From Geothrix sp. (GTDB taxonomy: Bacteria > Acidobacteriota > Holophagae > Holophagales > Holophagaceae): DNA of 64,000 nt. The notes below the pieces were generated by a model. That model was not told the DNA's origin and did no database searches. It was given only the letters and a program-made list of their open reading frames with translations. The stretch spans positions 1-64,000 of the forward strand of contig JAVBYJ010000010.1 in the NCBI GenBank assembly GCA_030824075.1, written 5' to 3'. The position numbers and the translations under genes are program-made. Below are positions 22,752 through 36,554 of this stretch, one piece after another (positions within the stretch are counted from its first letter, which is position 1; each line of letters begins with the position of its first letter).

Positions 22752-22821
22752 CAGCCACAGATGAACACGGATGAACACGGATGCATCATGATCTGTGTTC
22801 ATCTGAGTTCATCCGTGGCTG
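22752..22821. repeat. Palindromic interspersed repeat, copy 1
   Basis: A 70-base element made of two long, nearly identical inverted arms, each containing tandem GATGAACAC-type units (left arm starts CAGCCACAGATGAACAC, right arm ends GTTCATCCGTGGCTG). The same family recurs at 34409-34483. Similar (A/G)GATGAACAC repeats are known as dispersed elements in several bacterial phyla. The right arm runs into the start of the next gene (GTG at 22815). Confidence 0.85.
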
Positions 22822-24011
22822 ATTCCGTTCCCACCATCTCCGCCCCCACCGCCCAGCGGCTGTTCCTGGGGGCCCAGGGGCTGCTGGACGATCCTGCCCG
22901 GCGGGTCACCACGGCCTCCCTTCAGAAGCTCATCGAGCGATTGGGCTTCGTCCAGGTGGACACCATCAATGTGCTGGCCCGGGCCCATGATCTGACGCTC
23001 TTCAGCCGCCTGGACGGCTATCGGCCCGAGCAGCTGGAGCGCCTGCTGGAGGGCAAGCGGACCCTGTTCGAAGGCTTCACCCACGACGCCTCGGCCATTC
23101 CCACGGCCTGGTTTTCCCACTGGAAGCCCCGCTTCGCCCGCGACCGGGAGCGCATCCAGGCCCATGCCTGGTGGCAGCACCACTTCCGCGGCACGGACGG
23201 CGGCCAGGTGGTGAAGGATGTGAAGACCCGCATCGAACGCGAGGGTCCCCTCAAGTCCTCGGACTTTGAACATCCGGAAAAGCGCGGCCCCTGGTGGGGC
23301 TGGAAGCCGCAAAAAGCGGCTCTGGATTTCCTCTGGCGGAGCGGGGAGCTGGTGATCCCAAGGCGCGAGCGCTTCCAGAAGGTCTACGACCTCACGGAAC
23401 GCGTGCTGCCGGAGCACCACGCCCTGCCCTGCCCCGACCCCACGGAGCACCTGGCCTGGGCCTGCGCCACCGCCGCGGAACGGCTCTGGATCTTCACGCC
23501 AAAAGAGCTGGCGGATTTCTGGGATTCTATCGAAGCTCCGGAAGCCAAGGCCTGGTGCGCGTCCGAAGAGAGGGCTGACCGCCTCGTCCCCGTGCAGGTG
23601 GAAGGTGCCGACGGGGAACGCCGCCCGGCCTTCGCCCTGGTGGACTGGGAAGCCAGGCTGGCGAAGCTGCCAGAACCGCCGGAGCGCACCCGCCTGCTCT
23701 GCCCCTTCGACCCCATCCTCCGCGACCGGGCCCGGGCCCTGCGGCGCTTCGATTTCGACTACCGCTTCGAGGCCTTCGTGCCCGAACCCAAGCGCCGCTA
23801 CGGCTACTTCGTCCTGCCCATCCTCGAAGGCGGCCGCCTGGTGGGCCGGCTCGACCCCAAGCTGCACCGCGACCGCGGCCTGCTGGAGATCAAGGGCCTC
23901 TGGTGGGAGCCCGGCATCAAGGCCACGAAGGCCCGCAAACGTCGGCTGGACGAGGCCCTGGAACGGTTGGCGGTCTTCGTGGGTGCGGAGCAGATCCAGG
24001 TTGTTGGCTGA
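22815..24011 (+). CDS. Winged-helix DNA glycosylase-like protein (AlkX/YcaQ family, HTH_42)
   Basis: A 398-residue member of the AlkZ/YcaQ family of monofunctional DNA glycosylases that open alkylated bases and interstrand crosslinks. The family's catalytic Q-phi-Q/D motif appears as QVD (FVQVDTINVLARAHDLTLFSR, near residue 50), so it fits the YcaQ/AlkX type rather than AlkZ (QxQ). Later motifs include LLCPFDPILRDR and RYGYFVLPILEGGRLVGRLD. The start is uncertain: GTG 22815 lies in the right arm of the repeat, and an ATG at 22761 within the repeat is also in frame, so the N-terminus may have been reshaped by the element. Role in repair is inferred from the family. Confidence 0.85.
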   Translation: MADSVPTISAPTAQRLFLGAQGLLDDPARRVTTASLQKLIERLGFVQVDTINVLARAHDLTLFSRLDGYRPEQLERLLEGKRTLFEGFTHDASAIPTAWFSHWKPRFARDRERIQAHAWWQHHFRGTDGGQVVKDVKTRIEREGPLKSSDFEHPEKRGPWWGWKPQKAALDFLWRSGELVIPRRERFQKVYDLTERVLPEHHALPCPDPTEHLAWACATAAERLWIFTPKELADFWDSIEAPEAKAWCASEERADRLVPVQVEGADGERRPAFALVDWEARLAKLPEPPERTRLLCPFDPILRDRARALRRFDFDYRFEAFVPEPKRRYGYFVLPILEGGRLVGRLDPKLHRDRGLLEIKGLWWEPGIKATKARKRRLDEALERLAVFVGAEQIQVVG

Positions 24012-24030: not shown

Positions 24031-24873
24031 ATGTCCGTCTCGAAGAGCCCCCTGCTGAACCGCCTGCACAGCGCCAAGGGGTTGTCCCCCAGCCAGCGGC
24101 AGATCGCGGACTGCCTGATCGCCAACATCAACGAGGCCGCCCTCTGGGGGGTGGAAGAACTGGCCGAGAAGACCCAGACCTGCGTGGCCACCGTGGTGCG
24201 GTTCGCCAAGAAGCTTGAGTACTCAGGCTACCTGGAGATGCGGAAGGCCCTGGTGGGCGCCGCCAAGAAGCACTACGGCCGCGGTGAGCAGCTCCTGCAG
24301 TCCCCCGTTGGCGCCTCGGCCACCCTGCTGGAAGTGGCCCGGCGGGATGTGCGGAACATCGAGATGCTGGTGCAGGCTGTGAACGAGGATCTCCTTCAGC
24401 GGGTGGTCAAGCAGCTCAAGGCCAGCCGCCTTCGCCTGGCCATCGGGGACGGCGTCTCGGCCCTCATGGCCCGGCAGCTGGCCTACCTCCTGATCAATAC
24501 CGGCCTGCCGGTGATGGAGGGCAATCCCGCCGACTTCGCCACCCAGGTGGGCATGCTCGACGGCAGGGACCTGCTCATCGCCATCAGCATCAATCCCTAC
24601 ACCCAGGAGACCCTGGACGCCGCCGCCTACGCCCGGAAGCGGGGCATTCCCGTCCTGGTGTTCACCGACAGCTTGAATTCCCCCCTGGCCAAGTCGGCCA
24701 CCCTGATCCTGCCCATTCCCGGGGAGAACCTGCTCTTTTCCCACAGCGTGACGGCCTTCGGCGTGCTGGCCCACGCCATCGCCACCTCCATCGCCAGCCA
24801 GGCGCCCCAGCAGGCGCTGAGCAAGCTGCGCGAGGTCGAGCGGGTGGCCCACCGGAAGTTCGCCAAGACTTAG
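24031..24873 (+). CDS. RpiR/MurR-family transcriptional regulator (HTH plus SIS domain)
   Basis: A 280-residue regulator. An N-terminal RpiR helix-turn-helix (LSPSQRQIADCLIANINEAA, then TCVATVVRFAKKLEYSGYLE, residues 12-75) is joined to a SIS domain (about 125-255) that normally binds phosphosugars. The ATG at 24031 lies 19 bases after the glycosylase gene. A strong terminator follows at 24885-24927, then the TonB receptor gene. By position it is the likely controller of the peptide-scavenging genes downstream, but no operator was identified, and RpiR factors more often sense sugar phosphates. The SIS ligand is therefore an open question. Confidence 0.88.
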   Translation: MSVSKSPLLNRLHSAKGLSPSQRQIADCLIANINEAALWGVEELAEKTQTCVATVVRFAKKLEYSGYLEMRKALVGAAKKHYGRGEQLLQSPVGASATLLEVARRDVRNIEMLVQAVNEDLLQRVVKQLKASRLRLAIGDGVSALMARQLAYLLINTGLPVMEGNPADFATQVGMLDGRDLLIAISINPYTQETLDAAAYARKRGIPVLVFTDSLNSPLAKSATLILPIPGENLLFSHSVTAFGVLAHAIATSIASQAPQQALSKLREVERVAHRKFAKT

Positions 24874-24884
24874 ATCCGCGTCAA

Positions 24885-24927
24885 ACACGGACACCGCCTT
24901 CCCCAGAAGGCGGTGTCCGTGTTTTTT
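24885..24927 (+). terminator. Rho-independent terminator after the RpiR regulator gene
   Basis: A perfect 16-base-pair stem (arms 24885-24900 and 24907-24922, core GGACACCGCCTT) with a six-base loop is followed directly by a run of T. It should end the transcript of the regulator gene and so insulates the TonB receptor gene, which starts about 90 bases on. Confidence 0.93.
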
Positions 24928-24945
24928 GGGTTAATGAAAAAAAAC

Positions 24946-24974
24946 TTGACTCACTCGTAACAGAAGCATTACTT
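24946..24974 (+). promoter_or_regulatory. Candidate promoter of the TonB-dependent receptor gene
   Basis: TTGACT at 24946-24951 is followed after 17 bases by TTACTT. It lies just downstream of the terminator and about 40 bases before the receptor's start, in AT-rich DNA. The -35 match is good and the -10 match is poor, so this is only a candidate. A GGAGG ribosome-binding site follows at 25007-25011. Confidence 0.3.
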
Positions 24975-25015
24975 TTTGGTCACCAATCCAACATCTTTCA
25001 ACTTTCGGAGGCGTG

Positions 25016-27763
25016 ATGACTAGAACGTCTGGCATTTCCAGATTCAGTGCGCTCGTCCTGACCCTTGTGGCGGCCCCCGTGGCCCTGGTCGCACAGAGTG
25101 CCTCCACCTCCGCCCTGACCGGCGTGATCAAGGACGCCAAGGGGGCCCCCCTCCTGGGCGCCACGGTGCGGATCTCCTCCCCAACAGCCATCGGTGGCGA
25201 ACGGATGGTCAGGACGTCAGAGAATGGCAGCTACCGCTTCCCCATGCTGGCTCCCGGCCGGTACCGCATCGTGGTCGAGGCGCCGGGCCAGACCACCCTC
25301 ACAGGCCAGGAGACCCTGGAACTCGGCAAGACCGTGACCCGGGACTGGCGCTTCGCCGCCATCACCGGCGCCACGGTGGAAGTCATGGCCGACACCGCCT
25401 CCGTGGACTCCGCAACAGTGGGTCTCACCCAGAATTACAGCGTCGAAGCCCTGGTGGCGCTGCCCTCCGACCGCTCCCTGAACGGCATCATGAACTTGAC
25501 GCCGGGCGTGAATGACGGCCGGGCCTGGGGCGGTTACAGCGGCGAGAACGCCTACATGATGGATGGCATGAACATCAGCAACCCTTCAGGCGGAGGGGTG
25601 TGGATCTTCCCCAACATGGACTGGTTCTCGGAAATCCAGGTCGCGGGGCTGGGCGCCAACGCGGAGTTCGGCGGGTACATGGGCGGTTTCACCAACGGCC
25701 TCATCAAACGGGGCGGCAACACCCTGGAGGGCAGCCTCAACGCGTTCTACGGCGACTCCAAGTGGCAGGCTCGCAGCCGGGCCAGCCACCCGCTCATCAC
25801 GGAGGCTGACAAGGAGATCCTCCCGACGAAAGACTGGGATCTGGCGATCAGCGTGGGCGGTCCCATCATCAAGGACAAGCTCTGGTACTTCGTGTCGGCG
25901 GAACGCCAGGAGCAGACCAACAATCCCACGGGCGCGGATCTGCCCCAGCGGAACCAGAAGATCATGGGCCTAGCCAAGCTCACCTGGGCACCTACGGCAT
26001 CCACCACCCTGGAATTCCTGGCCGAATATGACTACGTCGGCAGGGATCGACGCGGCATCGACTACTCCACCATGCCCGAGGCCACCCAGAAGGAAGACGC
26101 GCCGAACCGCTCCTACAGCTTCACCTGGACCCAGGTCCTGGGGCAGGACATGGTTTTCGGCCTCAAGTCCTTCGGGTATTCCGGCCGCTATGATCTGCAC
26201 GGCTACAGCGGGGATGCCCCTCCTTTGGATACGGCCTCTCCCTGGGATGTCACCGGGAAGGAATACTACATCAACCCCCAGACGGTGGAATGGAACTACC
26301 GCTCCCGGGCCACCATCCAAGCCACTTTCGATCTATTCAAGACGGGCCTCATCTCCGCCAGTGACAGCCACGCCTTCCGTTTCGGCATCGAACGGGAGCA
26401 GGCGGCGGACGAGGAGCTGCAGCGGTACCCCGGCGGGCTGAACCTGAATGCCGACTGGGACAGCGGTGGCGTCTACACGGACTACATCATCGCGGGTGGC
26501 GGCTGGAACGTCCGCCAGCGGACCGACCGTGTGGCTGCGTTTATCCAGGACACCTGGCGCGTGAACGACCGCCTCACCCTCAATCCCGGCGTCCGCTTCG
26601 AGCAGTTCAAGGCCCGCTTCTACGGCGGAGACAACGTATGGAACAAGGACACCGTCGCGCCCCGGTTCGGCTTGAGCTACGCGCTCACCAGCGACCAGAA
26701 GAATGTCTTCAAGCTCCACTGGGGCAAGTACTACGCGGGTTACTCCACCTACTTCATCGACCGGTCCATCCAGGCGGCCATTCCTGAGAAGGTCTATTAC
26801 AACTGGGGCAACTACGACTACATCGACCCCTTCAACCCGGCCACCTGGCCCAGCTACGACATCACAGATCCCGTCAACTACGAGTACCGGCGCGTCAACG
26901 ACCTGTCGCCGGTGGATTCCAACGCCAGGCAGCCCTATACCGAGGAAACAACCCTCTCCCTTGAACACAAATTTGACGGCCCATGGACCCTCAGCGGATC
27001 GTACATCCACCGCGACTTCAAGGACAGCCTGGTGCGCAAGGACCTGGCCCCGGACCCCGATGGCGCCTGGTTCGACTACACGAATCCGCTCACGGGCAGC
27101 ACGGTGAGCGTCTGGGAACCCGGTCTCGCCGGTGACGAACACCAGTACGTGGTGACCAACGGTGGCAAGGACGCCAAACGCCGCTACTGGGCGGCCACCA
27201 TCAGCCTCGACCGGAAGCTGGAGAACAACTGGAGCCTGAATGCCAGCTACACCCACAGCAGCCTCAAGGGCAATATCCAGAGGGCAGACAGCTACGACAA
27301 GGTCTTCTACACCCCCAACAACCTGATCAACGCTGATGGCAAGCTGCCGGGCAACAACGATCATGAGGTCAAGGCCCGCATGACCTACCAATTCCCCTGG
27401 AACATGAGGATCTCGGGCAGCTTCACCTACCTCAGTGGCGAGCACTGGACACCCACCTTCCGCACATACAGCTATTTCGGAACCCGCTACGCCATCAACA
27501 CGGAACCTCTGGGCAGCCAGACCTATCCCAGTCGCAGCCTGCTCGACGTGCGCCTCAGCCAGTTCCTGAACGTGGGCAAGACCGCCAAGGTCGAGATCTT
27601 TGGAGAAGTCTTCAATCTCCTCAACCACCAGTCCGCGACCTCCTATACCACCCGGGTGAACACCAGCCCCGATGCGGCTGATGGCGTCTACGATTACTAC
27701 AAGTACCCCGACACACTGGACAAGGGCCGCCGCATGCAGCTGGGCCTCCGGCTCTCCTTTTGA
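25016..27763 (+). CDS. TonB-dependent receptor with N-terminal carboxypeptidase-regulatory-like domain
   Basis: A 915-residue outer-membrane receptor. A signal peptide (cleavage near VALVAQS) is followed by a carboxypeptidase-regulatory-like beta domain (residues 30-110, TSALTGVIKDAKGAPLLGAT), a plug domain (about 120-240, with YMMDGMNIS) and a large beta barrel ending in LRLSF with a C-terminal Phe. This design is typical of Acidobacteriota and resembles Bacteroidota SusC-like and Oar-type receptors. No SusD partner is present. ATG 25016 is preferred to the GTG at 25013 because of ribosome-binding-site spacing. It heads the run of peptidases, so the imported cargo may be a peptide or polymer fragment, as inferred from context. 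Confidence 0.9.
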   Translation: MTRTSGISRFSALVLTLVAAPVALVAQSASTSALTGVIKDAKGAPLLGATVRISSPTAIGGERMVRTSENGSYRFPMLAPGRYRIVVEAPGQTTLTGQETLELGKTVTRDWRFAAITGATVEVMADTASVDSATVGLTQNYSVEALVALPSDRSLNGIMNLTPGVNDGRAWGGYSGENAYMMDGMNISNPSGGGVWIFPNMDWFSEIQVAGLGANAEFGGYMGGFTNGLIKRGGNTLEGSLNAFYGDSKWQARSRASHPLITEADKEILPTKDWDLAISVGGPIIKDKLWYFVSAERQEQTNNPTGADLPQRNQKIMGLAKLTWAPTASTTLEFLAEYDYVGRDRRGIDYSTMPEATQKEDAPNRSYSFTWTQVLGQDMVFGLKSFGYSGRYDLHGYSGDAPPLDTASPWDVTGKEYYINPQTVEWNYRSRATIQATFDLFKTGLISASDSHAFRFGIEREQAADEELQRYPGGLNLNADWDSGGVYTDYIIAGGGWNVRQRTDRVAAFIQDTWRVNDRLTLNPGVRFEQFKARFYGGDNVWNKDTVAPRFGLSYALTSDQKNVFKLHWGKYYAGYSTYFIDRSIQAAIPEKVYYNWGNYDYIDPFNPATWPSYDITDPVNYEYRRVNDLSPVDSNARQPYTEETTLSLEHKFDGPWTLSGSYIHRDFKDSLVRKDLAPDPDGAWFDYTNPLTGSTVSVWEPGLAGDEHQYVVTNGGKDAKRRYWAATISLDRKLENNWSLNASYTHSSLKGNIQRADSYDKVFYTPNNLINADGKLPGNNDHEVKARMTYQFPWNMRISGSFTYLSGEHWTPTFRTYSYFGTRYAINTEPLGSQTYPSRSLLDVRLSQFLNVGKTAKVEIFGEVFNLLNHQSATSYTTRVNTSPDAADGVYDYYKYPDTLDKGRRMQLGLRLSF

Positions 27764-27787
27764 TTCAGCCCTCAGCGCCTGAACCAC

Positions 27788-27815
27788 CCAGCGGGCCGGT
27801 CCTCCGGCCCGCTGG
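27788..27815 (+). promoter_or_regulatory. Strong intercistronic hairpin between receptor and cyanophycinase genes
   Basis: A perfect 12-base-pair GC-rich stem (arms 27788-27799 and 27804-27815, CCAGCGGGCCGG) with loop TCCT lies 25 bases after the receptor's stop. There is no T tract, so it is not a classical terminator. Such hairpins between a highly expressed porin-type gene and enzymes often stabilise the upstream mRNA or reduce read-through. Confidence 0.7.
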
Positions 27816-27846
27816 CTTGCGGAATCTCCGACTGAAAGCCGCTCCC

Positions 27847-28680
27847 ATGCTCCGATTTCTTGCCAGCCTCGCCCTTTCCCTTGCGGGGGTCCTCTCCTTG
27901 GCCGCATCACCTCCCAAGGGCACCCTGGTCATCGTGGGTGGCGGGGGCATGCCGCAGGACATCCTGGAGGCCTTCTTCCGTGCCTCCGGCGGCAAGGGCG
28001 GGGTGGTGGGCATCGTGCCCACCTCCACCAGCGATCCGGACGGTGCGCTGAAGGAATGGAAGGACGATCTGGAGAAGGCGGGCCTCGCCTTCGTTCCCCT
28101 CGATGTCCGCACGCGGGAAGACGCCTCGGATCCGGCCATGCTCGACCGGGCCCGGCGCTGCACAGGTTTCTGGTTCTCGGGCGGGGACCAGAACCGCGTG
28201 GGCGACAAGATCGTGGGCACGCCGTTCCAGAAGGTCGTCCAGGACCGTTACCAGGCCGGCGCCGCCATCGGCGGCACCAGCGCCGGGGCCGCCATCATGT
28301 CGAAGGTCATGCTCACGGGCGATGACCGCCACGGCAAGGAAGCCCTGTCCGAGTTCGGCCCGGGGGCCTACGGCACCCGCGAAGGCATGGGGTTCCTGCC
28401 CGACCGTGTGGTCGTGGATCAGCACTTCCTGCGCCGCTCCCGGGAGAACCGCCTCTTCAGCGTGATCATGGACCACCCCGATCACCTGGGCCTGGGCATC
28501 GACGAAGCCACGGCCCTGGTGGTGAAGGACGGCAGGGCGACGGTGGCGGGGGAACGCTCCGTCATGGTCTTCGATCCCTCGGGGATGGCTCTGGATGGCG
28601 CGTCCTTCCGGGATCTCCGGATCCATGTCCTTCGCAGCGGCCAGTCCATCGATCTGGCCACCCGCAAGGTCGCGCCATGA
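27847..28680 (+). CDS. Exported cyanophycinase (S51 family serine peptidase)
   Basis: A 277-residue S51-family protein. The nucleophile elbow GGTSAGAAI has Ser145. The glutamine-bearing GGDQN and the histidine-bearing VVDQHFLRRSRENRL are also typical of cyanophycinase, which cuts cyanophycin into beta-Asp-Arg dipeptides. Residues 1-20 form a signal peptide (MLRFLASLALSLAGVLSLAA), so it resembles the extracellular CphE type. ATG 27847 is chosen because the signal peptide starts there. An isoaspartyl dipeptidase gene follows two genes later. Other S51 members act on alpha-aspartyl peptides or have unknown targets, so the substrate is inferred from family plus context. Confidence 0.85.
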   Translation: MLRFLASLALSLAGVLSLAASPPKGTLVIVGGGGMPQDILEAFFRASGGKGGVVGIVPTSTSDPDGALKEWKDDLEKAGLAFVPLDVRTREDASDPAMLDRARRCTGFWFSGGDQNRVGDKIVGTPFQKVVQDRYQAGAAIGGTSAGAAIMSKVMLTGDDRHGKEALSEFGPGAYGTREGMGFLPDRVVVDQHFLRRSRENRLFSVIMDHPDHLGLGIDEATALVVKDGRATVAGERSVMVFDPSGMALDGASFRDLRIHVLRSGQSIDLATRKVAP

Positions 28681-30164
28681 CTGGCGGTGCGCGGTTCGCA
28701 AGCCTGCTCCTGATTCTTGCGGCGGCCGGGTTCGCCGGCTCTGTCCAAGCCCCCTTTCCGGCGGATCACCGCACCCTGCGGCAGACGGTGTCCTACGACC
28801 AGATGTCCACCTTCCTCAGCGCGGTGGCCCGGCCCGGGTTCATCACGGTCACCGAAGAGGGTCGCAGCACCCAGGGCCGCAAGCTCTACCTGGTGCGCCT
28901 CAACCGCGGTGGCGCGAAGGCCCGGTTCAAGGTGCTCTACTACGCCCAGCAGCATGGGGACGAGGTGGCAGGCAAGGATGCTCAGCTGACGCTCATCCGG
29001 GACATCGCGGAACACCCTGCCCTGCTGCCCGAGGACGTGGACCTCTACCTGATGCCCATGCTGAACCCCGATGGCGCCGAGGCCCACACCCGCACCAACG
29101 GGACGGGTGCCGACCTGAACCGCGATCACCTCCTGCTCGCCCAGCCCGAGACCCGCACCCTCCACCGGGTGGCCCGGCGCATCCGGCCCCACCTCGCGGT
29201 GGACAGCCACGAATTCGGACGGGATGGGGACGGCTACACCAAGAAGGGCTGGACCGCCTGGCCCATCATTACCATGGATGCTGCCAACCACCCGCTGATC
29301 CCGGAGGCCCTCAAGACCATGGGCCTGGCGGCCGTGGCCTCTGCGGCGCCGCTCCAGGCCAGAGCCGGACATGCCTACCAGCGCTACACCGTGGGCGGAC
29401 CGCCACCAGACGAGGAGATCCGGCCTTCCACCTCGGAAGTGGACGATGGTCGCAACGGCATGGGCACCCTGGGCGCCCTGTCCTTCATCATCGAGGCCGG
29501 CGTCCGCCACCGGGCAGCCGATCCCCAGGCGGATCTGGGTGAGCGGGTGGACGGCTACCGCATCCTCTACCGACACCTGCTTGGCGACCGGTCCTGGCGC
29601 GAGCGGGTGCGGAAGCAGGCGGAGCAGGCCCGCCGTGAGCCCCTGCCCCCCTTCATCGCCACCAACACGTTCTGGGCGAATCGGGGCGGCAAGGTCATCC
29701 CGGTGAAAGTCATCGAAACCGCCACGGGCCGGACACTCGAGGTCCCCACCGCCAACGCCATGACCGATCTGGTGGTGAAGGGCAGCGTACCCACGCCCAG
29801 GGCCTATGCCATTGATCCCATCGCCGCGGCCCGCTTCCTTCCCGTGCTGGAGGCCCAGGGCCTGCGCTGGGAGACCCTCGCAGCGCCCCGCCGCGTGCGG
29901 CTGGAGCGGGTCCGCCTGCTCCGCCTCGAGGAGCCGTACGACGACTTGTATCAGCGGTACAAGGACCGGCAGATCGTCGAACGGCAGTCCCAGGCCGAGG
30001 TCGATCTGCCCGCCGGGACGCTCATCGTCCCCCTCGATCAGGATCTGGCCCGCCGCGCCATCCAGGTGCTCGAGCCCTGCCTGCTCTACGGGCTGTACGG
30101 CTACCCCGGCTTCCGCGAACTGGCCCGACCCGGGGCCGATCTGCCGGTGTCCCGCCTCTTCTGA
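28677..30164 (+). CDS. Exported M14-family zinc carboxypeptidase
   Basis: A 495-residue M14 peptidase with a signal peptide (residues 1-24, ending GSVQA). The zinc ligands are His93, Glu96 (QQHGDEVAG) and His178 (AVDSHEFGRDGD). NRD at 148-150 supplies the substrate-binding Arg, and Glu273 (LSFIIEAGVRH) is the catalytic base. The last 150 residues form a C-terminal domain of unknown function. The ATG overlaps the cyanophycinase stop (ATGA), so the two are translated together. It may trim arginine or other C-terminal residues from peptides released outside the cytoplasm. It differs from the cytoplasmic-looking M14 protein at 706-2238. Confidence 0.88.
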   Translation: MTGGARFASLLLILAAAGFAGSVQAPFPADHRTLRQTVSYDQMSTFLSAVARPGFITVTEEGRSTQGRKLYLVRLNRGGAKARFKVLYYAQQHGDEVAGKDAQLTLIRDIAEHPALLPEDVDLYLMPMLNPDGAEAHTRTNGTGADLNRDHLLLAQPETRTLHRVARRIRPHLAVDSHEFGRDGDGYTKKGWTAWPIITMDAANHPLIPEALKTMGLAAVASAAPLQARAGHAYQRYTVGGPPPDEEIRPSTSEVDDGRNGMGTLGALSFIIEAGVRHRAADPQADLGERVDGYRILYRHLLGDRSWRERVRKQAEQARREPLPPFIATNTFWANRGGKVIPVKVIETATGRTLEVPTANAMTDLVVKGSVPTPRAYAIDPIAAARFLPVLEAQGLRWETLAAPRRVRLERVRLLRLEEPYDDLYQRYKDRQIVERQSQAEVDLPAGTLIVPLDQDLARRAIQVLEPCLLYGLYGYPGFRELARPGADLPVSRLF

Positions 30165-30200
30165 ACCCGTTCCGGACCCTGCGGTCTGGCTGGAGTCCCC

Positions 30201-31367
30201 ATGCTGCTCCTGATCAAGAATGCCGATGTCTACGCCCCGGAACCGGGGGGTCGGTGCGACCTGCTCATCGGGGGCGGCAAGCTCCTCCGCATGGAGCCGG
30301 ACATCCGCATCGCCCGGAAATACTGCGAGGTGATCGACGCCCGGAACCTCAAGGCGGTGCCCGGTTTCATCGACGGCCACGTGCACATCATGGGCGGTGG
30401 CGGCGAAGGAGGCTTCGCCACCCGCACACCGGACCTGCCCCTCACGGATGCGATCCAGGGCGGCGTCACCACCGTGGTCGGCTGCCTGGGCACCGATGGG
30501 TACACGCGAAACATGGCGGGCCTGCTGGCCAAGGCCAAGGGTCTCGACGAGGAGGGCCTCAGCACGTTCGTCTATTCGGGTTCGTACGGGCTGCCCCTGC
30601 GCACCCTCATGCCCAGCCTGGAGGAGGATCTGCTCTTCATCGACAAGGTGATTGGCGCGGGCGAAGTGGCCCTCTCCGACCACCGCTCCAGCCAGCCCAC
30701 CTTCGAGGCCTTCGCCCAGGTGGTGGCCATGGCGCGGCGGGGGGGTATGTTATCGGGCAAGGCCGGGATCGTGAATGTCCACCTGGGGGATGGGCCCCGG
30801 GGCCTGGACTTTCTGCGCCGCCTCCTGGCGGAAACCGAGTTGTCCGCGACTCAGATGCTGCCTACCCACATCAACCGCAACCCGCGCCTCTTCGAGGAAG
30901 GCATCGCCTACGCCAAAGGCGGCGGGTTCGTGGACTTCACCACCTCGACCCTGCCTTCGTACCTCGAGGATGGTGAAATCCCCTGCGCCAAGGCGCTGCG
31001 CCGCATGTTGGAGGCGGGGGTGGATCCGGGCCACATCACGTTCACCTCCGACGGCCAGGGCAGCCTGCCGGACTGGGACCGCAAGGGCCGCCTGCAAGAG
31101 ATCTCCGTGGGCCGCGTCACCTCGCTCTTCCCGGCCGTGCGCCAGGCCGTGCTGGAGGAGGGCATCCCCCTCGAAACGGCCCTGCGCGTGATCACCGCCA
31201 ATCCAGCCCGCATCCTCAAGCTGAAAGCCAAGGGGCGGCTGGCACCGGGGATGGACGCGGACATCGTCCTGCTGGATCCGCAGACCCTGGAGGTGCGCAC
31301 CGTCATCGCCAAAGGACGCCTGCTGATGAAAGCGGGCAAGCTGATGGCGAAGGGGATGTTCCAGTGA
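30201..31367 (+). CDS. iadA: Isoaspartyl dipeptidase (beta-aspartyl-peptidase), M38 amidohydrolase
   Basis: A 388-residue amidohydrolase of the IadA type, which splits beta-aspartyl dipeptides. Metal ligands are visible as HxH (His60, His62), His193 (VHLGDG), His222 (PTHINR) and Asp283 (FTSDGQGS). The family segment GAGEVALSDHRSSQ has Glu154 where, from memory, E. coli IadA has the carbamylated bridging Lys162. No signal peptide is present, so it acts in the cytoplasm on imported dipeptides. It is 36 bases after the M14 gene and overlaps the transporter gene (GTGA). With the cyanophycinase it completes a route from cyanophycin to Asp plus Arg. Confidence 0.9.
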   Translation: MLLLIKNADVYAPEPGGRCDLLIGGGKLLRMEPDIRIARKYCEVIDARNLKAVPGFIDGHVHIMGGGGEGGFATRTPDLPLTDAIQGGVTTVVGCLGTDGYTRNMAGLLAKAKGLDEEGLSTFVYSGSYGLPLRTLMPSLEEDLLFIDKVIGAGEVALSDHRSSQPTFEAFAQVVAMARRGGMLSGKAGIVNVHLGDGPRGLDFLRRLLAETELSATQMLPTHINRNPRLFEEGIAYAKGGGFVDFTTSTLPSYLEDGEIPCAKALRRMLEAGVDPGHITFTSDGQGSLPDWDRKGRLQEISVGRVTSLFPAVRQAVLEEGIPLETALRVITANPARILKLKAKGRLAPGMDADIVLLDPQTLEVRTVIAKGRLLMKAGKLMAKGMFQ

Positions 31368-32818
31368 ACGACCAGGAGCAGGCCCCCAGCCCCCAGCTTC
31401 CGGTGCCCTCCTCGGGCCTGAAGATGCCCCACACCCTCGTGATCGTGGGAGCCCTGATCGTGCTGGTTCTGATCCTCTCCTGGATCGTGCCCTCGGGCGA
31501 GTTCCAGCGCATCGAAAAGGTGCTGCCGGACGGCGGCCGGATCAAGGTTCCCGTGGATGGCACCTTCCACCAGATTCCCAAGACCTACCTGGGCCTCCAC
31601 ACCCTCTTCCTGGCGCCCATCAAGGGTTTCCTTGATGGCGCGGGCCTGATCTCCTTCCTGCTCATCATCGGGGGGAGCTTCGCCATCTTTCAGGAGACCG
31701 GCGCGGTGGAACAGGGCATCAAGCGGCTCATGGTCCACCACGTGCGCCGCCACCCCACCCTGGAGACGCTCTTCATCCCGGTGCTGATGACCGTGTTTTC
31801 ACTGGCCGGGGCGGTCTTCGGCATGGCCGAGGAGCTGATCCCCTTCATCGTGATCTTCATCGCCCTGTCCCGGGCCCTGGGCTACGACTCCATCGTGGGC
31901 GTGAGCATCCCCTTCCTGGGTGCCGCCGCCGGGTTCGCCTGCGCCTTCTTCAATCCCTTCACCGTCGGCGTGGCCCAGGGTATTGCGGGCGTCCCCATCT
32001 ACTCGGGGCTGACCTACCGGGTGGGTGCCTGGGTGGTGGCCACGGCCGTGGTGATCGCCTACGTGATGGTCTATGCCGCCAAGATCAAGCGGAATCCCGA
32101 ACTGAGCCCTGTCCGGGATATCGATCTGGCCCGCGAATCCAGCGTTCCGGCCGGATCAAGCGATGACTGGAACCGTTCGCACATCCTCGCGCTCCTGACC
32201 TTCTTTGGCGCCCTGATCCTGCTGGTCTACGGCGTCCTGAAATACCAGTGGTACCTGGAGGCCATCGCCGCCCTCTTTCTCGGCATGGGCATCCTGGTGG
32301 GCCTCATCGCGCGCATGGGCCCCAGCACCCTGGCGCAGCACTTCATCGCGGGCGCCAAGGACATGGTCGGCGTGGTGTTCATCGTGGCCTGCGCCCGGGC
32401 GTTGCTGGTCATCGCCAACGACGCCCGGATCATGGACACCCTGCTGCTCTACGGCTCCAACGCCATCCGCGTGCTGCCCCAGGCCATGACCGCCCAGGTG
32501 ATGTTCCTGGTGCAGTGCGTCATCAACTTCTTCATTCACTCGGGCACCTCCCAGGCGGCGCTCACCATGCCGGTGCTGGCGCCCCTCTCGGACCTGGTGG
32601 GCATCACCCGCCAGACCTGCGTCTACAGCTTCGCCCTGTCGGAACTGATCAACCCCATCCTGCCCACCAGCGCCGTGACCATGGGCGTGCTGGGCGCGGC
32701 CAAGATCCCCTGGGATCGCTGGGCCCGCTGGTTCCTGCCCCTCATGCTCATCCTGGTGGTCCTGGCTTTCCTGCTGCTGGTGCCCCCCACGCTGCTGTTC
32801 TACTGGGGCCCGGTGTGA
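31364..32818 (+). CDS. YfcC-family membrane carrier (C4-dicarboxylate/amino-acid transporter-like)
   Basis: A 484-residue integral membrane protein with about 12 helices of the YfcC/DcuC-like superfamily, including WIVPSGEFQR after the first helix, GGSFAIFQETGAVEQGI, GMAEELIPF and FFIHSGTSQAAL. Relatives carry C4-dicarboxylates, arginine/ornithine or short peptides, and related genes (often annotated YfcC) frequently pair with peptidases. The GTG start overlaps the isoaspartyl dipeptidase stop. Context suggests import of dipeptides or the released amino acids. Substrate and direction cannot be told from sequence. It also overlaps the next gene (GTGA). Confidence 0.85.
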   Translation: MNDQEQAPSPQLPVPSSGLKMPHTLVIVGALIVLVLILSWIVPSGEFQRIEKVLPDGGRIKVPVDGTFHQIPKTYLGLHTLFLAPIKGFLDGAGLISFLLIIGGSFAIFQETGAVEQGIKRLMVHHVRRHPTLETLFIPVLMTVFSLAGAVFGMAEELIPFIVIFIALSRALGYDSIVGVSIPFLGAAAGFACAFFNPFTVGVAQGIAGVPIYSGLTYRVGAWVVATAVVIAYVMVYAAKIKRNPELSPVRDIDLARESSVPAGSSDDWNRSHILALLTFFGALILLVYGVLKYQWYLEAIAALFLGMGILVGLIARMGPSTLAQHFIAGAKDMVGVVFIVACARALLVIANDARIMDTLLLYGSNAIRVLPQAMTAQVMFLVQCVINFFIHSGTSQAALTMPVLAPLSDLVGITRQTCVYSFALSELINPILPTSAVTMGVLGAAKIPWDRWARWFLPLMLILVVLAFLLLVPPTLLFYWGPV

Positions 32819-34368
32819 ACCGGCAGGTCCTTTCTTCGCTCACGCTGTGGGGCCTCCTCGCCAGTTCCGCCATGGCCCAGGATTCGGCTGGAGACTTCAT
32901 CCGCGTCATCCGCCCGGAGCCCCTTCCGGCACCGCTGTCGACGCTACTGGGCGACCTGCACACACCGCGGATCGCCCAGCACATGACCTTCCTCGCGGAT
33001 CCCCACCGCGAAGGCCGGGGCCTCGGCACCCGGGGGCTGGACGATACCGTCGGCTACCTCGCGGCGCAGTTGAAGGCCTCGGGCATCCCCCCCCTCGGCG
33101 GGTCCTACCTTCAGTCCGTGCCCATGCGGAAGGTGCAGCCGGGGGCCAGCCAGATCACCCTTCGGGCCCCGTCGGGTGCCTTCACCTTCCGGGCGGGCCG
33201 GGACGCCGTGCTACCGCCCATCGCACCCGGAACCCTTTCGGGGCCCCTCGTCTTCGTTGGATACGGCATCCAGGAACCCGCCCTCGGGCACGACGATTTC
33301 CGCGACCTCGAGGTCCGGGGCAAGGTCGTGGTTTTCCTGGCGAGATGTCCAGAGGGCCCGCTTTGGCAGACGCCTGACCTCCTCGCGAAATACGCCTCCC
33401 AGCGGCCTGCAGACCGCTACGACAGCCGCTTGGCCGTGCTGGAAAAACTCGGTGCCCGCGCGGCCATCGCGGTGGAGGACGGGTTGGAGCGTCGCATCCG
33501 GGAAGGCAAAGAGACCCTCCAACCCTATTTCCTCGCGGAGGCCGGTGTCCCCATCTCCGGCGAGCCGCCCCTGGCGCGGGTGGCCCTGATCCCTGAGCTC
33601 CGGGGATGCATCAAGGCCGGGTTCGAGGGCACGGCGACCCTGACGGTACGTGGCCGGGTGAAGGGCTTCCGTGGTTTCAACGTGATGGGCAGACTGGAGG
33701 GCTCCGATCCGGCGCTGCGCCAGGAGGCCGTCCTCCTGGGGGCCCACATGGACCACCTCGGCATGCCGGACGGCGTGCTGCATCCCGGCGCGGACGACAA
33801 CGCCTCGGGCGTGGCGGCCCTGCTGGAGATCGGCCGGGCCGCCGCCAAGGCTCCCACCCGCCCCCGGCGCACGCTCCTCCTGGCCTTCTGGACCGGCGAG
33901 GAGGAGGGCAAGTTCGGCTCCGGCCACTACACCCGGCATCCCCGTTGGCCCCTGGTCACGACGAAGGCCTACCTCAATCTGGACATGATCGCCCACCCCT
34001 GGACGACCGCAGAACTCCAGACCCTGGTGGCCGAGGCCAAGGCGCCGAAGGCCTTCCTGAATGGGCTGGATCCCGCCCACTTTGCCGAGCCGGGACTGTC
34101 CATGGCGCACCGGGACCTGGGTCCGGTTCTCATCCAGGCGGGCCGAGGCACGGGTATGTCCCTGCACCTGGACTGGACGGACGGACGGAATGGCGGCAGC
34201 GACTACCGCGACTTCGCCCGGCTCAACGTGCCCTTTGTGCGTTTCTTCGGGAGCTATTTCCCGGACTACCACCAACCCGGCGACACCCTCGACAAGCTGG
34301 ATCCCGAGCAGGTGAAACGCATGGCCCGGCTCGTGCTCGCCACCGCCTGGCTGCTGGCGGACCGCTGA
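32815..34368 (+). CDS. Exported M28-family zinc peptidase (aminopeptidase-like, PA domain)
   Basis: A 517-residue peptidase from GTG 32815, coupled to the carrier gene. It has a signal peptide (residues 1-21, ending SSAMA). A PA-type insert covers the middle (FVGYGIQEPALGHDDFRDLEVRGKV-type region). The M28 co-catalytic zinc site follows: AHMDHLGM, GADDNASGVAAL, GEEEGKFGSGH, NLDMIA, and the late His in FPDYHQPGDT. The family removes N-terminal amino acids from peptides. As the last gene of the locus it would add exopeptidase activity in the periplasm or outside. A palindromic repeat lies about 40 bases downstream. Confidence 0.88.
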   Translation: MNRQVLSSLTLWGLLASSAMAQDSAGDFIRVIRPEPLPAPLSTLLGDLHTPRIAQHMTFLADPHREGRGLGTRGLDDTVGYLAAQLKASGIPPLGGSYLQSVPMRKVQPGASQITLRAPSGAFTFRAGRDAVLPPIAPGTLSGPLVFVGYGIQEPALGHDDFRDLEVRGKVVVFLARCPEGPLWQTPDLLAKYASQRPADRYDSRLAVLEKLGARAAIAVEDGLERRIREGKETLQPYFLAEAGVPISGEPPLARVALIPELRGCIKAGFEGTATLTVRGRVKGFRGFNVMGRLEGSDPALRQEAVLLGAHMDHLGMPDGVLHPGADDNASGVAALLEIGRAAAKAPTRPRRTLLLAFWTGEEEGKFGSGHYTRHPRWPLVTTKAYLNLDMIAHPWTTAELQTLVAEAKAPKAFLNGLDPAHFAEPGLSMAHRDLGPVLIQAGRGTGMSLHLDWTDGRNGGSDYRDFARLNVPFVRFFGSYFPDYHQPGDTLDKLDPEQVKRMARLVLATAWLLADR

Positions 34369-34511: not shown

Positions 34512-35849
34512 TCACTCGAGTTCGACCTCTGCGTACCACCCCTTGCTGATGATCTTGGTGCCGTAGGGCGCGGACAGTTTCTGCATGAGCGCGAGGATCT
34601 CTCCGCCCCGCTTGGTGCTGGCCAGGCGCGGCACACCGTAGAGGGGACCCTCGTCATCGATGGTGACGGGCAGCAGCTGGATCCGCTTCAGCTTCCCCTG
34701 ATTCAGGGTCATGCGGACCATCACGGACTCCATGACTTCGCGGGATTCCCGGCGGTCCCACACGGAGACATTGGTGGGCCGAGGCATCTCGATGTCCCTC
34801 TGGTGGATGAGATCCACGGGAATCCGATCCGGCGTCCGGTACTGGTAGATGAAATCGCCCAGGCTGTAGAAGATGGGCCTGCCCTTGTAGATCTCGATGC
34901 CGCGCAGCACATGGGGCCCGGTGCCCAGCACCAGATCCGCTCCCGCTTCGATGGCGCGGTGGAACATGATCTGGTCATTGGGCGGCGTGGTGTCCTGGAT
35001 CCCGTAGGCGCGGTGATGGGTCACGTCGTGGTTGTGCAGCGACACCAGCAGCACATCTGACCGTCGCCTGGCGAGGAGGATATCGTCCTCCATGGCCTTC
35101 ACGTCGGCCTCCAGGGGGCCCTCCACCTTCTCCACCTGTCCGTCCTTCGCCACGAGGATCACGGCCGGATCGATGGTGGCCAGGGAGGGTCCATTCGGAT
35201 CCTTGGACCGGTATTTGGCCGTCCAGTAGCGCATGTAGGACAGCAGGGCGAAGGTGGTCTTGCGACCCGCGATCTCCATGCGGCCGGGCTTCCGGGCCTC
35301 GGCGAGGGTGGTTCCCGCTCCGGCGTAGGTGATGTTGGTGTGATCCAGGGCCTGGAGGCACTCCTTGAGGCCTTCCGGCCCGAAATCCAGGGCGTGGTTG
35401 TTGGCCAGACTCACGAGGTTGATGCCGGTGCGCGCCAGCTCCCAGCGGAACTCCCGGCCGGCCCGGAAGTTGTAGAAGGGGCGCTGCAGGTCTGGCCGGT
35501 CGTTCAGGGAGAACTCCATGTTCCCGTAGGCGATGTCTGCTTCCTGCATGATCCGGAAGAGGCCGGCACGCTCCGCGTCCGCAAGGTGGGTGATGGGCTG
35601 GTTGAAGATCATGTCACCCACGGCGGTGATGACGACCTCCCCCGGCTCCTCCTTGAGCAGCTCGCCGATGCGGCCCTGCCAGTCGATGCGTTCGGCCGGT
35701 TCCTTCGGCTGGATGCGCCGCTGGTAGACGGAGCGAGGGTCGTCCTTCGTACTGCCGGGGCCCGCCTGGGCCAGACCGGGAACGGTGAGGCTGACCAGCA
35801 GCGCTGCGGCCAGCGGGAGGCTTCGATAGGTCCGGTTCGTCCCGTTCAT
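34512..35849 (-). CDS. CapA-family protein (PgsA-like metallophosphatase fold)
   Basis: A 445-residue CapA/PgsA-family protein with an N-terminal signal peptide (residues 8-29, ending GLAQA). The fold's motifs are AVGDMIF, YGNMEFSLN, NLVSLANNHALDFG, VLLVSLHNHD, GADLVLGTGPHVLRGIEIY and IFYSLGDFIYQY. The founding member takes part in poly-gamma-glutamate capsule synthesis, but many relatives stand alone with other roles. ATG 35849 is preferred because CAGGAG lies upstream and the signal peptide follows at once. It is convergent with the M28 gene. No capsule synthesis genes are nearby, so function is left open. Confidence 0.85.
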   Translation of the reverse strand: MNGTNRTYRSLPLAAALLVSLTVPGLAQAGPGSTKDDPRSVYQRRIQPKEPAERIDWQGRIGELLKEEPGEVVITAVGDMIFNQPITHLADAERAGLFRIMQEADIAYGNMEFSLNDRPDLQRPFYNFRAGREFRWELARTGINLVSLANNHALDFGPEGLKECLQALDHTNITYAGAGTTLAEARKPGRMEIAGRKTTFALLSYMRYWTAKYRSKDPNGPSLATIDPAVILVAKDGQVEKVEGPLEADVKAMEDDILLARRRSDVLLVSLHNHDVTHHRAYGIQDTTPPNDQIMFHRAIEAGADLVLGTGPHVLRGIEIYKGRPIFYSLGDFIYQYRTPDRIPVDLIHQRDIEMPRPTNVSVWDRRESREVMESVMVRMTLNQGKLKRIQLLPVTIDDEGPLYGVPRLASTKRGGEILALMQKLSAPYGTKIISKGWYAEVELE

Positions 35850-35963
35850 GGGTGCTCCTGGCGCTTGAGGGAAGGTATGCACAATTTTGTTTCATTTATC
35901 GGATACAGGCAAAGTATTTCGCGCATCACCGGGCCTTTCCGGGGGGCGTTCTATCCTGGAGTC

Positions 35964-36554
35964 ATGACCACCCACTCCGATTACTGGAACCGCATCTACG
36001 AGGACGAGGGCCGGCCCGGCTGGGATATGAATGGCGCGACCCCCCTGGTGGGCGAGACCCTGGACCTGGCCCATGCCCTGGGCCTGCATCCAGGCGGAGA
36101 CCTGGTGGTTCCGGGCTGCGGCTACGGCCACGACGCGGCGGAACTGGACGCCCGGGGCTTCACGGTCACGGGCCTGGATTTCGCGCCCCTCGCCATCCAG
36201 GGGGCCAGACATCGCTACGGGGATCGGGTCATCTGGTCCCAGGCCGACTGGTTCACCACGCATCTCGGCCCCTGGGACGGGATCTTTGACCACACCTGCT
36301 TCGTGGCCATGGATCCGGTCCGGCGGTCTGCCTATGTGGACGCCTGCGCGGAGCATCTGAAACCGGGAGGCCTCTGGATGACCGTGCTCTTCCACGATGT
36401 GAAGGGGCAGCCGGGCCCACCCCATGCCATCCCCATGGTGGAGATGCGGGCCCTCGTGGAAGCCCGTTTCGAAGTGCTGCACCTGGCTGAAACATCGGGC
36501 AGCCACCCGCGCCGCGCCGGCCGGGAGTATCTGATGGTGGCGCGGAAGCGCTGA
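35964..36554 (+). CDS. SAM-dependent methyltransferase (TPMT-like)
   Basis: A 196-residue class I methyltransferase. It opens TTHSDYWNRIYEDEGRPGWDM, and the SAM-binding motif I reads LVVPGCGYGHDAAELDARG, followed by VTGLDFAPLAI. FDHTCFVAMDP and the late LEAR-type helix match thiopurine S-methyltransferase-like proteins, including halide or thiol methyltransferases. GGAG precedes the ATG. It stands alone between the divergent CapA gene and the ABC transporter. The methyl acceptor may be a small thiol, halide or metalloid compound, and sequence alone does not settle it. Confidence 0.85.
   Translation: MTTHSDYWNRIYEDEGRPGWDMNGATPLVGETLDLAHALGLHPGGDLVVPGCGYGHDAAELDARGFTVTGLDFAPLAIQGARHRYGDRVIWSQADWFTTHLGPWDGIFDHTCFVAMDPVRRSAYVDACAEHLKPGGLWMTVLFHDVKGQPGPPHAIPMVEMRALVEARFEVLHLAETSGSHPRRAGREYLMVARKR

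Follow-up and report, generated by a model that had tools for sequence, protein, structure and literature searches.

Cyanophycin, a polymer of arginine and aspartate, is a major nitrogen store of cyanobacteria and of other bacteria, and little is known of its uptake by other microbes. The question raised here is whether a block of genes in a bacterium of soils and sediments, a Geothrix sp. (Acidobacteriota, Holophagaceae; assembly GCA_030824075.1, contig JAVBYJ010000010.1, positions 1 to 64,000 of the forward strand, a stretch of 64,000 nucleotides (nt) hereafter called the window) serves to scavenge this polymer from outside the cell. Judged by homology and linkage, the locus is quite probably a cyanophycin-scavenging (cyanophycin utilization) island of this Holophagaceae acidobacterium. 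The original prediction, made from the sequence alone, had described seven genes in one direction, all of which are present in the positions, order and direction described, and their families are upheld by Pfam and NCBIfam. The block is larger than proposed, as a convergent PGA_cap gene had been missed, and of five close joints counted from the cyanophycinase on we find four (an overlap of 4 nt, a gap of 36 nt, and two further overlaps of 4 nt each); the gap between receptor and cyanophycinase genes is 83 nt. The genes and elements of the region are as follows.

22818..24011, forward strand: YcaQ-like gene, the left flank, outside the island and present in both island-bearing and island-free genomes
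24031..24873, forward strand: RpiR-family regulator with HTH_6 and SIS domains (Pfam)
24883..24924, forward strand: terminator-like hairpin 3' of rpiR, with a 19-bp stem and a T run (consensus match only)
24934..24984, forward strand: promoter/operator-like element TGAAAAAAAACTTGACT...GCATTACTTTTTGGTCACC upstream of the receptor gene (predicted from conservation)
25013..27763, forward strand: TonB-type outer-membrane receptor, Oar-like (CarboxypepD_reg and OMP_b-brl_4/TonB barrel; Pfam)
27847..28680, forward strand: exported cyanophycinase of family S51, with Ser145 (TIGR02069, residues and leader)
28677..30164, forward strand: exported M14 metallocarboxypeptidase-like protein (Pfam, alignment, AF2/Foldseek)
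30201..31367, forward strand: isoaspartyl dipeptidase IadA, without leader (TIGR01975 and ligands)
31364..32818, forward strand: DcuC/YfcC-family inner-membrane carrier (PF03606, 317 bits; NF008611 below cut-off)
32815..34368, forward strand: exported M28 peptidase (PF04389, 135 bits)
34512..35882, reverse strand: exported PGA_cap (CapA/MslH-like) metalloenzyme, the eighth island gene (PF09587, 173 bits)
35964..36554, forward strand: methyltransferase-like gene, the right flank, outside the island and adjoining the left flank in island-free genomes

The S51 protein scores 171.2 bits against the cyanophycinase equivalog TIGR02069 (cut-off 126.6), and its closest solved relatives are the cyanophycinases 3en0, 7uqw and 7uqv. 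In Synechocystis CphB, we take the catalytic serine to lie in GTSAG and the substrate-site residues to be Q101, D172-Q173-H174, R178, R180 and R183. In an alignment with 3en0 the island protein has these catalytic and substrate-site residues, and its Q115, S145, D191-Q192-H193, R197, R199 and R202 are invariant among 22 orthologs; Ser145 had been placed correctly in GGTSAG, with the ATG at 27847. All 30 of the 30 exported-type CphBs have a hydrophobic N-terminal leader. The M38 protein scores 503.8 bits against TIGR01975 (isoAsp_dipep, cut-off 331), and was aligned with 8dqn, which we take to be LmIadA from Leucothrix. The metal and substrate ligands of LmIadA (H64, H66, E159, H198, H227, E73, T102 and R230; PMC10206079) are all identical in the island IadA. 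No cyanophycin synthetase (CphA1) was found in the same genome, the best match reaching 43 bits against a cut-off of 850, at Mur-ligase level only, and scavenging of outside cyanophycin is therefore the best reading. Cyanophycinase, isoaspartyl dipeptidase and transporter genes, the set by which a cyanophycin utilization locus is recognised, are thus clustered in a genome (94.6% complete) without cphA1.

The same genes travel together in related organisms. The S51 query was matched in 39 of 77 genomes of the family, mostly with an ortholog of at least 50% identity, and about 28 Holophagaceae loci share the gene order receptor, cyanophycinase, M14, IadA, in most cases followed by YfcC and M28; RpiR stands in front of the receptor in loci of the genera here labelled g1 and g5. 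In five genomes without exported cyanophycinase the YcaQ-like and methyltransferase-like flanks adjoin, while in genomes with it the genes from RpiR to M28 and the convergent PGA_cap gene fill the site between both flanks. One genome, G030, bears a deletion scar: what is left ahead of the right flank is RpiR, the promoter element and the final 201 codons of yfcC. Across 47 genomes of the genus, in Fisher tests from which relatedness was not removed, IadA occurs in 24/24 genomes with exported cyanophycinase and 0/23 without (p 6e-14), PGA_cap in 22/24 island genomes against 0/23 others, and an RpiR ortholog in 22/24 against 1/23, the one being the relic G030. PGA_cap also lies directly 3' of cphB on the same strand, with 64-69% identity, in other acidobacterial families (L083, L088, L089, L093), which indicates that it belongs to the system. 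The eight genes of the island are inherited or lost together between fixed flanks. The co-conservation on which the original prediction had been staked is therefore found both in gene order and in co-occurrence within the genus, and together with the cyanophycinase signature, the leader, the IadA partner and the missing CphA1 it leaves the proposed cyanophycin or beta-aspartyl scavenging well supported.

In the mechanism that we infer from these identities, the TonB-type receptor would bind and import cyanophycin freed by lysed cyanobacteria or other makers, and the exported cyanophycinase would cut it, in the periplasm or at the surface, from its polyaspartate backbone to beta-Asp-Arg dipeptides. 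Trimming or modification of the polymer or of its products may fall to the exported M14, M28 and PGA_cap proteins. The DcuC/YfcC-type carrier would then take the dipeptide (or Arg/Asp) across the inner membrane, where cytoplasmic IadA would split beta-Asp-Arg to Asp and Arg. The receptor operon would start at its own conserved promoter, probably under control of the linked RpiR protein.

The regulatory step was examined in the 5' part of the block. RpiR starts 19 nt past the end of YcaQ, and is followed by the terminator-like hairpin, whose stem is the longest by far where 8.1 such hairpins are expected by chance in the region. Twenty genomes share the element TGAAWAWAAACTTGAC...GCATTACTTTTT in the spacer that separates rpiR from the receptor gene, and the remainder of this spacer has diverged. 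The core of the element has a single occurrence in its own genome, and an imperfect inverted repeat, TGANNAAAAANT...ANTTTTTNNTCA, can be read by eye at the two ends. Genus g3 has this element upstream of its receptor gene too, with an RpiR ortholog (71%) about 10 kb off, and in g9 the element is changed and the closest RpiR is 58% identical and unlinked. RpiR as the plain first gene of one operon was modified as a model, since the hairpin and a separate conserved element lie before the receptor gene. The RpiR control first proposed finds its support in the linkage and co-inheritance of RpiR with the pathway, and the receptor operon has a putative promoter region of its own past the hairpin; RpiR control of that operon is plausible. 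That RpiR is instead a neighbour without regulatory role, carried on the YcaQ transcript and controlling something else, is unlikely, although RpiR proteins usually sense sugar phosphates and both the 19-nt spacing and the hairpin would suit such a bystander. RpiR is gone where the island is gone and YcaQ is still there, the promoter element tracks RpiR orthology, and RpiR also stands beside CphB and a receptor gene in L096 and, with a receptor of OMP_b-brl_4 type, near CphB in L121, L123 and L142.

Certain points weigh against the scavenging reading. Receptors of the Oar-like type have been linked to protein secretion, and the receptor gave no match to the Plug domain PF07715 at E 0.001, although a related receptor in L121 has one; g9 loci consist of receptor, CphB, M14 and IadA only, without YfcC, M28 and PGA_cap; and M14 and M28 could serve general peptide use. 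IadA enzymes take many beta-aspartyl dipeptides (PMC10206079), so that IadA leaves the substrate unfixed. A general scavenging of beta-aspartyl (isoaspartyl) or other peptides from damaged protein or debris, with S51 cutting peptides other than cyanophycin, would accommodate this promiscuity, as M14, M28 and IadA are broad peptidase families and sequence gives no substrate readout. We regard it as distinctly improbable, as the S51 protein exceeds the cyanophycinase cut-off and keeps the Gln and Arg residues specific to cyanophycinases, and IadA in the genus is never present without exported cyanophycinase.

The M14 protein (495 aa, with leader) scores 59.3 bits against PF00246, above the cut-off of 21.6, and in the ortholog alignment H93, E96, N148-R149, H178 and E273 are invariant, so that zinc ligands, Asn-Arg pair and catalytic Glu are kept. 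Foldseek matches of its AlphaFold2 (AF2) model (predicted local distance difference test (pLDDT) score 81, with loops 135-152 and 238-256 of low confidence) are M14 carboxypeptidases. Its identification as CphZ, a dipeptide hydrolase considered below, is not supported, as these fold matches stand against a sub-threshold AstE/AspA domain (PF24827, 22.1 bits, cut-off 25). Every arginine of cyanophycin bears a free alpha-carboxylate, and an arginine-removing carboxypeptidase step by M14 is therefore possible. Near the start of the window, at 742-1095, there is another stretch with a weak likeness to M14 carboxypeptidases (38% over about 100 aa). The carrier had been called YfcC-type; its membership of the DcuC family holds, whereas at 365.7 bits it falls below the cut-off of 500 for NF008611, the equivalog of the basic amino-acid antiporter YfcC. 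For the PGA_cap protein the sole solved relatives are MslH, a lasso-peptide epimerase with catalytic and calcium-binding residues D11, E44, N87, H88, D91, H259, H261 and H295 (PMC10406935). These correspond to D90, E123, N162, H163, D166, H283, H285 and H324, invariant in 18 orthologs, where the D11-D90 pairing was made by motif beyond the aligned stretch and the residue set may be common to the whole PGA_cap family. The score against the MslH equivalog NF038314 is 127, far below the cut-off of 700, and the AF2 model (mean pLDDT 58) was too weak for a fold search. Since the MslH residues are kept, both epimerase and metallohydrolase are conceivable, and we regard the exported PGA_cap protein as a candidate for either.

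The receptor has a history of its own. It matches PF00593 (42.6 bits, cut-off 27) and PF25183 (108 bits, cut-off 30). Across genera, pairwise identities of CphB, M14 and IadA are mutually correlated with r 0.94-0.97, while their correlation with those of the receptor is 0.17-0.24. Receptor identity inside the genus falls to 37% where that of M14 is at least 77%, and the window's receptor is closest to that of L032 from another genus (68%), whose M14 is 61% identical to the window's. In quick LG+G4 trees, in which some rows drew long-branch warnings, the receptor rejects monophyly of the genus (approximately unbiased test, p ~1e-61) and M14 separates g9 and g3 cleanly. A recent paralog of the genome's own receptors was considered and rejected, the best other match being 37% and confined to the N-terminus. 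This discordance indicates replacement in place by versions of one locus-specific receptor family, and the receptor gene has been swapped between lineages independently of its neighbour genes. The Oar-type architecture (CarboxypepD_reg and OMP_b-brl_4, no Plug match) and the position of the gene, always directly upstream of cphB in the roughly 28 loci, would agree with a receptor that exports cyanophycinase and peptidases to the surface rather than importing substrate, and Myxococcus Oar has been linked to protease secretion. Such a role is very unlikely, as exchange of the receptor without matching change in CphB, M14 and IadA is unexpected for a cargo-specific exporter, and SusC/SusD import systems occupy that position in Bacteroidota.

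That the genes serve to draw on a cyanophycin store of the cell itself has next to no chance of being right and is rejected: cyanophycinase most often accompanies CphA1 (PMC10206079), which a few relatives carry (above cut-off in 5/77 family genomes), whereas this genome has none and the leader of the island CphB is absent both from CphBs adjoining CphA1 (L039, L040 and L042, starts read) and from the related L041, which favours scavenging over storage for the island copy. Some Holophagaceae have a second, leaderless cyanophycinase (L039, L040, L041, L042, L043), and in G029, G046, G056, G057 and G059 a leaderless cyanophycinase lies beside CphA1, with another CphA-like ligase match near; these copies near CphA1 probably serve those genomes' own cyanophycin storage. 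Two genomes, G029 and G046, have both exported-type CphB and CphA1. In the G029 locus L045 (3421-5459, genus g1), iadA follows cphB with no M14 gene in between, and the exported CphB diverges more than any other (about 52%); this genome also has CphA1. The closest cyanophycinase found outside the family (49% identity to that of the window; L120, 594-1601) is in a record labelled Candidatus Sericytochromatia, and reflects either horizontal transfer or a binning error.

More widely, we surveyed 100 cyanophycinase loci with locally built hidden Markov models. Receptor-CphB pairs occur in several acidobacterial families, and SusC/SusD or TonB receptors beside cyanophycinase also in Ignavibacteria; SusC/SusD accompany CphB in Sphingobacterium, Bacteroidales and Salinivirgaceae. 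YfcC stands beside CphB in Ignavibacteriales, Bacteroidota, Elusimicrobia, Aminicenantes and Acidobacteriota, and M14 homologs with CphB in Acidobacteriota, Bacteroidales and one Phycisphaerae record. In Sphingobacterium (L146, L149, L156, L162, L164, L173), SusC/SusD-like genes are followed by an IaaA-like gene and cyanophycinase. In Bacteroidales L143 (11382-15257) and L159 an M14 homolog follows cphB-YfcC, the next genes in L143 being a MenC-like member of the enolase superfamily and a serpin.

The dipeptidase position is filled differently in other lineages. In L096, from another family of the same class, Asparaginase_2 (IaaA-type) and not IadA stands with RpiR, receptor and CphB. At 14 loci an M20 peptidase is part of the cyanophycinase cluster, mostly directly beside cphB and never with IadA (L121, L123, L126, L127, L128, L143, L150, L159, L170, L081, L088 and L089, and a second M20 type in L092 and L095); these clusters span Bacteroidota, Ignavibacteria/Chlorobiota, Elusimicrobia and Acidobacteriota. 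Of the 14, L089 alone has a weak match to IaaA in the stretch that holds M20, and an Asparaginase_2 gene is present elsewhere in 9/14 of the genomes and absent from 5/14, including all three Elusimicrobia. A beta-Asp-X dipeptide is an alpha-carboxylated beta-Ala-X, and the M20 family includes carnosinases. The M20 peptidase beside cyanophycinase is a candidate for the missing beta-Asp-Arg dipeptidase of Bacteroidota; the isoaspartyl dipeptidase of Firmicutes and Bacteroidota has been stated to be undiscovered (PMC10206079). At title and abstract level, our literature searches turned up no link of M20 or PGA_cap with cyanophycin. Steps beyond the two-enzyme pathway would be of two kinds, namely action of PGA_cap or M14 on cyanophycin or its dipeptides (for example by epimerising or by removal of arginine) and the M20 enzyme as that dipeptidase in Bacteroidota, Ignavibacteria, Elusimicrobia and some Acidobacteriota; that at least one of these is true we suggest only tentatively, with the balance somewhat against it.

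The island is compact, and its receptor, carrier, regulator and exported enzymes are each testable. As close relatives either have or lack it at a single chromosomal site, growth tests on matched pairs are simple to set up, and the swapping of the receptor gene offers a natural experiment on the causes of outer-membrane receptor exchange.

Several parts of this system have counterparts elsewhere. The cyanophycin utilization locus of strain L21-Spi-D4 (Salinivirga; Ben Hania 2017, in the account given by PMC10206079) contains one or more cyanophycinase genes, iadA and a transporter, and so has in common with the island, as far as that account goes, these three components for use of outside cyanophycin. 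The original prediction had held a TonB receptor in such a chain to be an undescribed arrangement, a claim weakened by this published locus and by the SusC/SusD and TonB neighbours of cyanophycinase. In L158, a relative from the Salinivirgaceae, SusC/SusD and IadA go with two CphB-like genes, whereas the receptor of the Holophagaceae island is Oar-like and has no SusD, and the same block contains RpiR, M14, YfcC, M28 and PGA_cap in addition. Within the same phylum, Ca. Sulfomarinibacter is described as having a leader-bearing cyanophycinase, no cyanophycin synthetase and, in one metagenome-assembled genome, an isoaspartyl dipeptidase, with the same inferred use of cyanophycin; in the passages of PMC8528874 concerned, neither a gene cluster nor a receptor, a regulator or a partner of the M14 or PGA_cap kind is mentioned. 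Acidiparvus apart, Holophagaceae have been recorded as having cyanophycinase, at the level of presence and absence (PMC11561045, in the part that treats it). CphZ, a cyanophycin dipeptide hydrolase of AstE/AspA type, is encoded by an M14-annotated gene beside cyanophycinase (PNAS 2023, as summarised in PMC10206079); unlike CphZ as so summarised, the 495-aa island M14 has a leader and stands with a dipeptidase gene, not in its place. The island PGA_cap protein is of the same family as MslH and keeps its eight residues (PMC10406935), and differs in being exported, linked to cyanophycinase and far below the equivalog cut-off. According to these accounts, cyanophycin scavenging loci are already known, the exported acidobacterial cyanophycinase included (PMC8528874); new here are the eighth gene, the unique promoter element, block-wise inheritance and the swappable receptor.

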